The notes under the pieces were generated by a model. The model ran no database searches. It was not told the DNA's origin and worked only from the letters and a program-made list of their open reading frames with translations. A stretch of 9,541 bases of DNA from Candidatus Poribacteria bacterium (GTDB taxonomy: Bacteria; Poribacteria; DTPJ01; WJIO01): the NCBI GenBank assembly GCA_014730235.1, contig WJIO01000085.1:1-9541 (forward strand), given 5' to 3'. The position numbers and the translations under genes are program-made. Shown here piece by piece: positions 213-9,119 of the stretch. The first letter of the stretch is position 1. Each line of letters opens with the position of its first letter.

Positions 213-285
213 GGTTCTTCCGGGTTAAGTGTGGTTATAATTGAAAATTCCCTCATCTTGTCATTCCTGCTAAAGCAGGAATGAC
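213..285 (+). repeat. Dispersed palindromic repeat, copy 1 (left arm plus central hairpin)
   Basis: The left arm begins GGTTCTTCCGGGTT and continues through GTGTGG and AATTGAAAAT to a perfect 11-bp stem, GTCATTCCTGC (260-270), loop TAAA, GCAGGAATGAC (275-285). Over the first 58 bases it differs from copy 3 (9010-9067) at about 6 positions. The right arm present in copy 3 is not recognisable here, so this copy looks truncated or diverged. No T-run follows the stem on either strand, so it is not a canonical intrinsic terminator. Confidence 0.85.
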
Positions 286-302
286 AACCAAATGATATTC
301 GT

Positions 303-1097: not shown

Positions 1098-2828
1098 TTA
1101 AGACTTTGGCAGCCATGACCGATAGTGAGTTCCATGCGCTCCGGCAGATGCGAAATCACAAAGGTTTACCGCCTGATTATTAATCGCTTCTGCTTTTAAC
1201 AATGTTATGGGTTTAAACAGGGCTTCCGTTTCTATTTTCTGAATATTATCCTGAGGAACTTTTAAAACGGATACATCATCAGGATCAAAGTCGTTAAATT
1301 TCTGGTCATAAGTCATTAGCAAGGGACCGCTATATATTGATACCAGACCTTCGCAGGCATTTTTACCGTCTTCATATCGTAAAGACATGTCCAGATTGAG
1401 TTCAATCTGATCCCCCGGTTTCCATTCTCGTTCAATAACAGCGTAGCTTCTGGGTTCTGCCGATTGAGTTGATTCGTTATTTACCCTGAAAATGGTATTT
1501 CCAGACCATTCGGGAATTCTGAGACGGACTGGAAATTCCCCTGTCTGTTCCGGCGAGATGGTGATTTTTATTTTACCATCTACGGGATATTCAGTCTCCT
1601 GTAACAGTTTTACCTGTTTATCGCCAAAATTTATAATAGATTCCACAGGTCCATAATAGTTTACCACAATACCGTTATCATCTGTCATAGCAGCCCATTC
1701 GCTTAACATCCCCAATCCCCTGGGGCCGTTTACCGAGCAGCAGTTTAGCTCTGGTGTGCCATGCCTCGCCTGAAAAACGATGCTATGAGCCGATGCAGGC
1801 CTGACGCCATTCATAGGGGTATCATAAGTCCACCACCGCCCCGACGGATGTTGAGAACCCAGCATACTGTTCCATGTGGATAGCTCCAGCTCATCTGCCA
1901 CAGCCGGATCTCCGGTGAGTCTCAACATGTCAACGCTGAGGGCCATCCATGCAATAGTGCAACATGTTTCAATAGCTCCCTGAGCGTAGGGATCACCAGT
2001 GGCTTTTTCACCTGTGGTAAATCCGCCGGTGTTGTGTATATCGTATTTCTGAATACTCCACCATAAATTTTCAAAGGCCGTCTTATATCTTTCATCGCCT
2101 GTAATCTGATAAAGTTCTACTAATCCCTGGACATCGTGAAGGCTTTCCCATCTTGGCAAAGGTGTCTTGTAAAATTCTACATTATCCAATCCCTGTCGGA
2201 AGTAATCGCCAGCCTGTTCCCATTCCTTTTCTATCTGTTGCATCATCTGAAAATAGCGTTCCTGACCTGTTTCCCGGTAAATCCAGCCTAAAACGTGTAT
2301 GACGGCCATATTCATTTCATGAGAACCGGCATCCAGCACTTTTTTATCCGTATTCAAATATATGTTACAGACCAGATCAGCGGCTTTTACCACACAATCC
2401 AGGGTTTTCTTATCACCTGTATCATTATGCCACATCATAAAGGCCAGCATCCAGTGATAATGTCCCCAGAGATCCCAGTGTCCTAAAAGCCTTTCACCCT
2501 TTGTAAAAGGTCCAAGATAACCGTCTTCTGCCTGGGAACCTGCCATATCAGCCATTACCTGCTGGATTAATGAAACTAGTTCCTCGCTTTCAATCATTCG
2601 TATAGCCTGAATAGCGGAGATCAGGTATTTTCCCACAAACTCTCCGGCCCATGGAACTAAATCCGGCTTTGGTTGGCGATCCCTCAGCCGAAACATCTCC
2701 GTCATACCTGGATTGGCTTTGGGTGCCCTGAGAAGCCAATTTTGTAGATTGGCTTTGATCCGATATCCCATGTAACCGTTGAATTTAAAGACAGGTTTAG
2801 ACAGTTTTTCAAATATAAAACTTCCCAT
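1098..2828 (-). CDS. GH127-family beta-L-arabinofuranosidase-like glycoside hydrolase (DUF1680)
   Basis: The protein has 576 residues and belongs to the GH127/DUF1680 family: an alpha/alpha-barrel followed by C-terminal beta-sandwich sequence (about residue 385 onward). The family's zinc-thiolate site is intact. Glu287 and Cys289 (in AIETCC) and Cys363-Cys364 (in ELNCCSVNGPRG) match the Bifidobacterium longum HypBA1 ligands Glu338, Cys340, Cys417 and Cys418. Cys363 is therefore the expected nucleophile, and Glu274 in TTGEKATG is the best candidate for the acid/base (Glu322 in HypBA1). Known members release beta-L-arabinofuranose with retention, so that is the inferred reaction, though the wider family includes other specificities. 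It is shorter than many members and has no signal peptide, so it probably works on imported oligosaccharides. The ATG is preceded by a GGGGGG run overlapping the stop of the upstream DUF4091 gene. The 11-bp gap means co-transcription and perhaps translational coupling. Confidence 0.88.
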   Translation of the reverse strand: MGSFIFEKLSKPVFKFNGYMGYRIKANLQNWLLRAPKANPGMTEMFRLRDRQPKPDLVPWAGEFVGKYLISAIQAIRMIESEELVSLIQQVMADMAGSQAEDGYLGPFTKGERLLGHWDLWGHYHWMLAFMMWHNDTGDKKTLDCVVKAADLVCNIYLNTDKKVLDAGSHEMNMAVIHVLGWIYRETGQERYFQMMQQIEKEWEQAGDYFRQGLDNVEFYKTPLPRWESLHDVQGLVELYQITGDERYKTAFENLWWSIQKYDIHNTGGFTTGEKATGDPYAQGAIETCCTIAWMALSVDMLRLTGDPAVADELELSTWNSMLGSQHPSGRWWTYDTPMNGVRPASAHSIVFQARHGTPELNCCSVNGPRGLGMLSEWAAMTDDNGIVVNYYGPVESIINFGDKQVKLLQETEYPVDGKIKITISPEQTGEFPVRLRIPEWSGNTIFRVNNESTQSAEPRSYAVIEREWKPGDQIELNLDMSLRYEDGKNACEGLVSIYSGPLLMTYDQKFNDFDPDDVSVLKVPQDNIQKIETEALFKPITLLKAEAINNQAVNLCDFASAGAHGTHYRSWLPKS

Positions 2829-2839
2829 TATAATCCCCC

Positions 2840-4798
2840 CTATTCAATTACTTGGAAATGCCTCAATATCTGTTTCTTACTACCTTCTAATTCAGCTTCG
2901 ATAATTACATCTTCCCTGCCCGGTGAAACAAAAGCATGTCCGGCAAAAGTTCCATCTGGTTTTACTTCTACACTTATTCCCTGTATTTTAACAGCAGTTC
3001 CTTTTTCTGCAACACCTCGAACCAGAACCAGTATAGGACCTGGATAAACTTTTGTTTCAGCCTGCGGTGTGGTTTGCACAAGAATTAACGGTCTTTGATC
3101 CAGTTCTTCTATCTCACGAGCTATAGTATTCCTGGCCTGTCTTAGTTTCTCCGGTTTTCTCTCAAATTCTGTAAATGAATATACCACCGAACGACATATT
3201 TCATCACTCCGACGTCTTGGATTAATGAGTTTTGCACTATTTCCCAGTTTTTCCTTAACATTCCTGGTTTTTTCTGCCAGAAGACGGAAATATTTGTAAT
3301 CCTGAAGGCCCTCCCTGGTGGCCTCCCAGCGTATGGAATCCAGAGGAGAACCCTGGCCCGGATATATTATGTATCTATCACCCGGTGGGAGATTATCACC
3401 AATATCCTTAAACGGGTTTTGCGTCCAGCGGTTTAAGCCCCAGTGAAGATAACCATCTAGCCTATATTTCCAGTTAAGCCAGAATAAGATACGCGTCTCA
3501 ATAAGCTCAAAATCAATAAACCTGTTGGGAAAAATTCCATAGGGATGACAGCATGTATAGAACCAAAGTTCCTTATCATCCTGAATTTCTTCCATATATT
3601 CATCATACCAGTTCATCAGGTGGCTGAGTTTGGGAACCCAGACATCCAGACAATCGCCAAAGCCCGTTGTTTCTATGGCTTCAATAATTTTCAGATGTGG
3701 TGCGTGCTGTTTGATAAAACCTGAGATATTGCAGTATGATTCAAGCTTGTATATGGTGGGTTCATCGGAGACGTGAACCATAGCTCTATCCTGCCAGCCC
3801 TTTTCCTGTAAGTGCATGTCCAGATTTTCCAGCATAAGGGCCATACCCTCTTCCGGTTCCAGCTTGATTGTTTTGCCTGATTCTTCATCCAGAACGGTTA
3901 TATTATTTATAGCCAGTTCTTTGGAATCCCAATGACCTTTACCTTCTTCCACAATTGTATGGGCTACTGCCGGAAATTCTATCCTCTCGCATGCACCAAA
4001 TTTATCAAAGAATTGGATCCATCTATCCATCCGGGTATAATCAATTTCCAGAGAACCATCACTCCTGCGAATTATAGGACCCGGGAAATCCGTTTCCACG
4101 ACATTTTGACCATGTTCCGCCATATTTTTTGCATACCTGCCCAGTATCTCCCAATATTCATAAGACCATATCTCGACTTCATGGGCCTGAGCGATGCTTT
4201 GAGGGCTGAACCAAAGGGTAACAAGTAAATGCCTTTCATCCGGCAGGATAAACGGATAGACTTCCATAGATATATCCAGGGATTTTTTCCCCTGGGATGT
4301 TATAACATCCACTTTTCCGATGTAATTACCATCCGGTGCGTCTTTTGGTATATTCACAGTCAGCCAAACAGGTTGAGTTATTCCACTTTCTATTCTGATA
4401 ATTCGCTTATCCAGCAGGGGATCAGGAAAATCAGCCGGAGCTTCTCGAATAAGACGCTTATTGGGTGTATGATATGTATTTTTTGCCAGAGAAACATAAC
4501 CTACAAAATTCCAGTCAATATTCTCCGGCGGCAAAGTATAACCTGAGAAATGGACTATTTCGCCTATTTCTACAGACACATTTTCCAGGTCTTTATTCGC
4601 AGTAATAGCGAACTGCCCGGACTGGTATTCGTTTTTTGCACAAGCAATTTTTATATTTACAGATTCACCTATAGGTGAATCTGTAAATACCTTATTCAGG
4701 GAGTCGGTAGTCCATAAATAATAAGGTTCGGTTTCAGAATTCAAAGATGCGGTAAATATATTTAATAAAGGCAGCAATATAAGCATTATTTTCTCCAT
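2840..4798 (-). CDS. Secreted DUF4091 / GH123-like glycoside hydrolase with C-terminal Ig-like domain
   Basis: I place the start at the ATG 4796-4798 (652 residues). This gives MEKIMLILLPLLNIFTASLN, a plausible signal peptide, and fits a promoter at 4845-4873. An ATG four codons later (4784-4786) has a better Shine-Dalgarno (GGAG, 6 bases away), and a TTG at 4844-4846 also has AAGAGG, so the start is not certain. Numbering from that TTG, a beta-rich N-terminal domain (about 40-200) leads to a TIM-barrel-like region (about 205-525). The barrel holds VHVSDEP (Asp361-Glu362), the Asp-Glu pair used by GH123 in substrate-assisted cleavage of N-acetylhexosaminides, and ends with SIRWEATREGLQDYKYF, a hallmark of DUF4091 proteins. 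Residues about 590-668 form an Ig-like module with GVAEKGTAVKI and DGTFAGHAFV, like the glucodextranase B-type domain. The substrate is unknown; beta-N-acetylgalactosaminidase is the family precedent. It is probably exported and is the first gene of the unit with GH127. A perfect 36-bp palindrome lies inside the 5' part of this gene. Confidence 0.82.
   Translation of the reverse strand: MEKIMLILLPLLNIFTASLNSETEPYYLWTTDSLNKVFTDSPIGESVNIKIACAKNEYQSGQFAITANKDLENVSVEIGEIVHFSGYTLPPENIDWNFVGYVSLAKNTYHTPNKRLIREAPADFPDPLLDKRIIRIESGITQPVWLTVNIPKDAPDGNYIGKVDVITSQGKKSLDISMEVYPFILPDERHLLVTLWFSPQSIAQAHEVEIWSYEYWEILGRYAKNMAEHGQNVVETDFPGPIIRRSDGSLEIDYTRMDRWIQFFDKFGACERIEFPAVAHTIVEEGKGHWDSKELAINNITVLDEESGKTIKLEPEEGMALMLENLDMHLQEKGWQDRAMVHVSDEPTIYKLESYCNISGFIKQHAPHLKIIEAIETTGFGDCLDVWVPKLSHLMNWYDEYMEEIQDDKELWFYTCCHPYGIFPNRFIDFELIETRILFWLNWKYRLDGYLHWGLNRWTQNPFKDIGDNLPPGDRYIIYPGQGSPLDSIRWEATREGLQDYKYFRLLAEKTRNVKEKLGNSAKLINPRRRSDEICRSVVYSFTEFERKPEKLRQARNTIAREIEELDQRPLILVQTTPQAETKVYPGPILVLVRGVAEKGTAVKIQGISVEVKPDGTFAGHAFVSPGREDVIIEAELEGSKKQILRHFQVIE
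4654..4689. repeat. Perfect 36-bp palindrome inside the DUF4091/GH123-like gene
   Basis: Positions 4654-4671 read TATTTACAGATTCACCTA, and 4672-4689 are its exact reverse complement with no spacer. It lies in frame in the coding sequence, where on the minus strand it covers the peptide FTDSPIGESVN, about 110-145 bases after the proposed ATG. An 18-bp arm without mismatch is not expected by chance in 9.5 kb. The RNA could fold into a long hairpin near the start of the message, and the DNA could extrude a cruciform or bind a dimeric protein. I see no second copy in the window. Confidence 0.9.
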
Positions 4799-4844
4799 TT
4801 CCAGATAAAAATTAAAATGCTTTTGATTATATCCAATAGACCAC

Positions 4845-4873
4845 AATATACCTCTTTATAGTTGATAAGTAAA
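4845..4873 (-). promoter_or_regulatory. Candidate promoter of the DUF4091-GH127 unit
   Basis: Read on the minus strand, TTTACT (4868-4873) is followed after 17 bases by TATATT (4845-4850), matching the sigma-70 consensus at 4 of 6 and 5 of 6 positions. Initiation would fall near 4838, downstream of the possible TTG start at 4846 and about 40 bases before the ATG at 4798. This favours the later start codons. No other strong pair was found in this divergent region. Confidence 0.4.
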
Positions 4874-4892
4874 GCAAAAACATCCTCCATTT

Positions 4893-4969
4893 GTCATTCC
4901 TGCTTCCGCAGGAATGATAAGCTGAGAAAATTTTCAAATTATTACTATACTTAAGCCGGGAGAGCCAAA
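4893..4969 (-). repeat. Dispersed palindromic repeat, copy 2 (inverted orientation)
   Basis: The central stem is GTCATTCCTGC (4893-4903), loop TTCC, GCAGGAATGAT (4908-4918), with one end mismatch. To its right, AGCTGAGAAAATTTTCAAATTATTACTA...AAGCCGGGAGAGCC is the reverse complement of the left arm of copies 1 and 3, so this copy is inverted relative to them. It sits between divergent genes, just upstream of the DUF4091 promoter and before the GH50-like promoter. The opposite arm (about 4876-4892) is only weakly similar to that of copy 3. Confidence 0.8.
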
Positions 4970-8947: not shown

Positions 8948-9009
8948 GAATATTCGATTTTCATGGATTGGATAAACAAAACCATTATATTTGTTATTCC
9001 TGTTTATTT

Positions 9010-9119
9010 GATTCTTCCGGGTTTAGTGTGGTAATAATTGAAAATGCTCTCAGCTTGTCATTCCTGCTTCCGCAGGAATGACAAAATATAGAGTTTTCCC
9101 ACACCAACCCGGGAGAACC
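9010..9119 (+). repeat. Dispersed palindromic repeat, copy 3 (most complete, MITE-like)
   Basis: This copy has both arms. The left end GATTCTTCCGGGTTTAGTGTGG (9010-9031) pairs imperfectly with the right end CCACACCAACCCGGGAGAACC (about 9099-9119). At the centre is a perfect 11-bp stem GTCATTCCTGC (9057-9067), loop TTCC, GCAGGAATGAC (9072-9082). The whole unit is about 110 bp with terminal inverted repeats and no coding capacity, as in miniature inverted-repeat elements or large REP/BIME-type repeats. No clear target-site duplication flanks it. It lies between the nucleoside hydrolase-like gene and the iron-ADH gene, where the stem could affect read-through. Confidence 0.85.

Follow-up and report, generated by a model that had tools for sequence, protein, structure and literature searches.

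Conserved genes in the mitochondrial genomes of Nematomorpha contain perfect inverted repeats that are accompanied by no insertion element, are either perfect or absent, with no excess of imperfect repeats, and have been attributed to template switching or repeat conversion (PMC6649704). Short inverted repeats are also known to be in excess within bacterial genes, which has been ascribed to template switching (PMC4060949), and short-range switching gives rise to perfect stems and corrects imperfect ones (PMC8794818). In hairpin-creating or hairpin-mending template switches (PMC8794818) and in quasipalindrome-associated mutations of E. coli (PMC7202029), reverse-complement copying creates or perfects a stem in place. 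Rickettsia palindromic elements (RPEs), as cited in PMC6649704, likewise lie inside ORFs; as described there, they form an inserted, repeated family whose arm identity has been lost. Intrinsic terminators and REP palindromes (PMC3733652) make up a further class of bacterial hairpins.

Here we describe a perfect 36-bp palindrome within a glycosidase gene of a Candidatus Poribacteria bacterium, together with the hairpin population of the same genome. The palindromes share with those of Nematomorpha, the nearest precedent, their perfect arms, their location in conserved genes, their all-or-none identity and the lack of an insertion element, but they belong to a bacterial chromosome and have arms of 14-19 bp in ORFs of at least 150 aa, whereas the Nematomorpha repeats are mitochondrial and reach 284 bp. 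Both arms are reported to encode conserved regions in Nematomorpha, whereas in each of the three genes that we scored one arm deviates from the family, and phase 3 is depleted among the long Nematomorpha repeats but accounts for 3 of our 5 (PMC6649704). The cases of PMC8794818 and PMC7202029 come from reconstructing the history of RNA genes or from hot spots in reporters, whereas here a standing genome-wide population is seen, some of it in protein genes. Unlike RPEs, the 36-bp palindrome has a sequence of its own, was formed in place and is perfect. The intergenic hairpins of this genome, located just 3' of genes, resemble terminators (PMC3733652) in position, but the palindrome in the glycosidase gene lies within a gene, lacks a T-run and is not a member of any repeat family. 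Among open-access papers, our searches turned up no bacterial chromosome described as having a discrete population of palindromes of such length.

RESULTS

A perfect palindrome within a GH123-type gene

The window analyzed here is the whole 9,541-nt stretch of DNA, which is one entire contig of a draft genome of 5.53 Mb (451 contigs; completeness, 91.6%), probably a short-read MAG. At positions 4654-4689, TATTTACAGATTCACCTA is followed without a spacer (0 nt) by TAGGTGAATCTGTAAATA, forming a perfect palindrome of 2 x 18 bp with 100% complementarity, which reads in frame on the minus strand as VFTDSPIGESVNI within a GH123-type glycosidase (Table 1). The original prediction of a perfect, spacer-less, in-frame palindrome was exact as to position, arms and frame; the gene that it named DUF4091 corresponds to the GH123 gene identified by its PF13320 match. 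The reading frame stays intact across the palindrome, and the SDEP motif and other family-invariant residues are present. The gene starts at 4798 or 4786, the longest ORF (2840-4846) beginning at TTG 4846. The GH127 and GH123 genes probably belong to one operon. Between 444 and 9539, genes for ThuA-like, GH127, GH123, GH42-like, M55 D-aminopeptidase, nucleoside hydrolase and iron alcohol dehydrogenase proteins are clustered, perhaps as a carbohydrate/nucleoside-use island. No Rfam family matched in the window, and no homologues of the locus were found on plasmids.

Table 1. Genes, palindrome parts and in-gene palindromes discussed in the text (coordinates without a prefix refer to the window)
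Feature	Position	Strand	Remarks
GH123-type glycosidase gene	2840..4798	-	PF13320, 2.8e-63; N-terminal signal-like segment
GH127 gene (beta-L-arabinofuranosidase-like)	1098..2828	-	Downstream of the GH123 gene
Left arm	4654..4671		3' arm on coding strand; encodes GESVNI, hypervariable linker; putative derived (overwritten) arm
Right arm	4672..4689		5' arm on coding strand; encodes VFTDSP; putative ancestral template arm
Self-complementary TATA at dyad	4670..4673		Candidate first switch point
QueA palindrome	L070:10672-10708		Compared with homologues
CCA-adding enzyme palindrome	L068:18393-18429		Compared with homologues
Isochorismatase-like palindrome	L078:6163-6197		Compared with homologues
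Arginase-family fusion palindrome	L048:2849-2877		Compared with homologues
O-antigen ligase (N-terminus) palindrome	L115:1432-1471		Same genome

When up to 3 mismatches were allowed, the two arms were the only matches to the half-site in the window (0.01 expected), and within 2 mismatches they were its only matches in the whole 5.53-Mb genome. The uniqueness implied by the original prediction holds for the sequence, but features of this kind are common in the same genome. The corresponding mRNA is predicted to fold into a hairpin of -24 kcal/mol (z, -7 versus shuffles); a terminator-like T-run was looked for at the palindrome and was not found. The palindrome is confirmed as real and far beyond chance, as had been anticipated, with no arms of at least 14 bp arising in protein-preserving codon shuffles of 711 ORFs in 20 replicates.

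Comparison with GH123 homologues

A scan of other genomes with an alignment yielded 80 loci, which were used both as homologues and as a control. The relatives are distant, the nearest GH123 homologues being 44-46% identical, and the event was read at the protein level from arm conservation. Opposite the query segment KVFTDSPIGESVNIKIAC, these nearest homologues (46% and 44% identical) have RVFEETSPEEGVGLISIKC and RVFEDTSPEEGLPFIDIKV. Across 85 GH123 homologues, the aligned segment, where present, comprises 13 to 17 residues, and the query, with 13, lies at the short end of this range. Because the segment of the homologues is equal or slightly longer, nothing was inserted in GH123. The VFTDSP arm is conserved among relatives (mean BLOSUM62, 1.72 versus a gene mean of 1.76), whereas the GESVNI arm fits the family poorly (mean BLOSUM62, -0.30; column entropy, 3.29 versus a mean of 2.16), and the homologous GH123 DNA retains just 5 of the 18 pairs. 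The conserved 5' arm, the deviating 3' arm and the few retained pairs together indicate that the symmetry is new in this lineage, in agreement with the predicted recent gain, by which homologues were expected to lack the nucleotide symmetry. Judged from these alignments, the 3' arm would most simply be a reverse-complement copy of the 5' arm.

Palindromes in other genes

Eight hairpins lie within called ORFs, five of them in genes that were compared with homologues; outside the window, the in-gene palindromes measure 29-40 bp and occur in five genes. Two of the eight, L062:4498 and L089:14235, sit where an ORF begins, lack family support and probably belong to the intergenic class. As a null model, 711 ORFs (0.90 Mb) were shuffled synonymously, with the encoded protein preserved, in 20 replicates. 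ORFs of at least 150 aa contained 7 hairpins with arms of 14-19 bp, compared with 0 in the 20 shuffles at arms of at least 14 bp and 0.1 per replicate at arm 13. At arms of 9, 10 and 11 bp, the same ORFs contained 22, 7 and 1 hairpins, versus 17.6, 4.8 and 1.2 after shuffling.

The alignments of all five genes (GH123, QueA, CCA-adding enzyme, isochorismatase-like and arginase fusion) showed zero gaps over the palindrome, and the segment length was identical in 29/29 CCA and 26/29 QueA homologues. The 5' arm of QueA fits its family (mean BLOSUM62, 2.56) and the 3' arm is off (0.74), with Glu in place of the Gly found in 25 of 29 homologues. The polarity is reversed in the CCA-adding enzyme, the 3' arm carrying a conserved Met-Asp (1.51) and the 5' arm being off (-0.09). 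In the genes with enough homologues, namely GH123, QueA and CCA, one arm thus fits the family and its partner deviates from it, as judged from the aligned sequences. Relatives keep 3-12 pairs at the five sites, mostly near chance; an imperfect palindrome may or may not have existed there beforehand. According to the phases of their centers, codon position 3 pairs with position 3 in GH123, QueA and CCA (3/5). This is the phase that most constrains the encoded residues (PMC6649704), which makes a gradual, silent build-up implausible.

The genome-wide hairpin population

Our census covered 120 contigs or contig ends plus the window, that is, 1.11 of 5.53 Mb (39% G+C). Spacer-less palindromes in this 1.11 Mb numbered 205, 58, 13 and 4 at arms of 6, 7, 8 and 9 bp, followed by one at 11, one at 13, none at 14-17 and eighteen at 18-33. 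The population is bimodal: a chance-like class is gone by arms of 9-13 bp, and a separate long class follows. With loops allowed and repeat families removed, there were 51 perfect hairpins with arms of 14-32 bp, no two of which have a 12-mer in common and 41 of which show an apparent loop of 0-3. Besides the palindromes in Table 1, examples include L065:14507-14544, L092:1177-1234 and L056:10276-10330, along with about 40 others in L028-L147; hairpins of this type have apparent loops of 0-3 and mostly lie no more than about 40 nt from the 3' end of a gene.

The control (80 loci of other genomes; 1.14 Mb) is a rough one because it is richer in G+C (59%); its perfect hairpins with 16-bp arms numbered 1 outside ORFs and 1 within them, compared with 34 non-family hairpins and 7, respectively, in this genome. 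At 0, 1, 2 and 3 mismatches, 16-bp arms in ORFs numbered 7, 0, 4 and 20, versus 0, 0, 4 and 25 in Markov sequences counted over all positions. These counts thus show no tail of decaying copies, which points either to recent events or to arms whose identity is maintained. The corresponding series was 34, 7, 9 and 10 for intergenic non-family arms, and 1, 1, 9 and 42 in ORFs and 1, 1, 3 and 14 outside them for the control.

Of the 32 intergenic hairpins that could be placed, 11 lie between convergent genes, which make up 11% of intergenic space, and 1 between divergent genes, which make up 28%. The median distance to the nearest gene end is ~12 nt, and the loop-0 palindromes are centered on TATA, ATAT, TTAA or GGCC. 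These hairpins probably serve as transcription terminators whose stems are unusually long and perfect, and the intergenic majority could be selected terminators and not mutation footprints.

Repeat families form a distinct component of the genome. A small palindromic repeat, TTGTCATTCCTGC..GCAGGAATGACAA, occurs in three copies in the window (244-287, 4877-4920 and 9041-9084), two of which have a common 5' extension and thus a longer form (212-287 and 9009-9084). A related half-element, TGTCATTCCTGCTTCAAGCTTTTT, has 144 matches on the plus strand and 145 on the minus strand of this genome, and one match only, with 2 mismatches, in 57 relatives. The repeats are a lineage-specific REP/MITE-like family and are often perfectly palindromic themselves. 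A 76-bp hairpin with 36-bp arms at L133:11000-11075 resembles a head-to-head pair of the window repeat near 9030-9084.

Hairpin-processing nucleases

A search of this 91.6% complete draft gave no match for SbcC and a weak partial match, below the cut-off, for SbcD. Neither protein was found in a sister genome of the same order (G001), of which about 23 kb, too little sequence to judge, contained no such hairpin. SbcD exceeded the cut-off in 14 of the 20 genomes searched, and most Poribacteria relatives searched have it. SbcCD cleaves DNA hairpins, and its absence could therefore let hairpins form or survive; its loss is a possible permissive factor, the correlation being that of one draft genome. 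Loss of exonuclease VII as a cause was ruled out by the presence of xseA.

DISCUSSION

We consider it likely that the palindrome in the GH123 gene is the mutational footprint of a template switch, an inverted copy made in place, and neither an element nor a regulatory site. A perfect reverse-complement copy adjoins its source, and in GH123, QueA and CCA one arm appears, at the protein level, to be ancestral and the other replaced, both being features of such a footprint. The switch itself, its direction and a role for SbcCD are what we infer from this pattern. During DNA synthesis, the growing strand would have switched to the opposite strand at the self-complementary TATA, synthesized the reverse complement of about 18 nt of the conserved stretch that encodes VFTDSP and gone back to its own template, the length changing little or not at all. 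A mirror copy would thereby have replaced the next 18 nt, which belong to a tolerant, hypervariable linker and now encode GESVNI, and left the frame open. This Poribacteria genome would have undergone the same process repeatedly, within genes and probably also at their 3' ends, with template switching or continued arm conversion keeping the hairpins perfect and SbcCD loss possibly helping them to arise or persist. A nascent strand that folds back on itself is expected to retain at least 3 bases as a physical loop, and the many cases with loops of 0 to 2 would therefore be better explained by a switch between strands at the dyad. The apparent loops of 0-3 in most non-family hairpins likewise fit dyad-crossing copying better than selection on RNA loops. 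The scarcity of products of 10-13 bp counts against this reading, in that generic template switching does not predict it. Under the template-switch reading, the unusual feature is the rate of switching.

Among the alternatives, a functional mRNA hairpin deserves the most weight, even though we regard it as improbable: a stem of 16-18 bp ~100 nt after the start codon might slow ribosomes or polymerase, or protect the message, and be kept by selection. Folding is physically possible at the predicted energy and z value, and many other hairpins of the genome lie just 3' of genes in a terminator-like manner. However, the T-run that follows the stem of an intrinsic terminator or attenuator is absent here, and nothing else pointed to a function; the in-gene hairpins occupy differing places in unrelated genes whose homologues lack the pairing, and one-mismatch versions, which selection on RNA would tolerate, are missing in ORFs. 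An error of sequencing or assembly, such as a fold-back or chimeric reads, might be suspected in a draft of so many contigs that is probably a short-read MAG. We judge it very unlikely, because the sequence flanking the site continues properly, in either direction, into homologous coding sequence, five genes, conserved ones among them, show the pattern with no indel or frame loss, and an artefact would not be expected to favor gene 3' ends, with the convergent excess and divergent deficit described above.

Two readings proposed in the original prediction have become less plausible still, and to each we would now give hardly any credence. A perfect dyad near a gene start within a sugar-use cluster could be the operator at which a dimeric regulator binds within the first gene of the GH123-GH127 unit, but a half-site of this sort should recur at other regulated genes, and the genome-wide search within 2 mismatches returned no second copy. 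Palindromes of the same build elsewhere have unrelated sequences, and 36 bp of perfect symmetry exceeds what an operator needs. An in-frame insertion of a palindromic mobile element, whether RPE-like or REP/MITE-like, its relic or a recombinase target could be entertained in a genome this rich in palindromic repeat families, one half-element of which has ~144 matches per strand. The palindrome, however, has no sequence in common with any repeat family or with the other hairpins, and its segment is not longer than that of the homologues, so that neither the multiple related copies nor the extra segment of a mobile element is seen. Of the readings originally put forward, recent gain was borne out, whereas operator and insertion were not.

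Returning to template switching, a broader reading is possible, although we hold it with less than even confidence: the lineage may have a hyperactive, homogenizing inverted-copy process, through template switching or hairpin conversion, that was released by SbcCD loss and, chromosome-wide, keeps writing perfect palindromes of ~30 bp or more in place and mending them, rewriting short stretches of housekeeping proteins. It would be a bacterial counterpart of the mitochondrial palindromes of Nematomorpha. Evidence for template switching has usually come from individual events or from hot spots in reporters. If our interpretation is true, tens of long, perfect, sequence-unrelated hairpins, several of them in conserved genes where the overwriting of one arm is visible, would constitute a natural record of the process. 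What sets the patch length of 14-20 bp, and whether SbcCD loss allows palindromes to build up, would then be testable, and the process would offer a route by which short protein segments are rewritten in one step.
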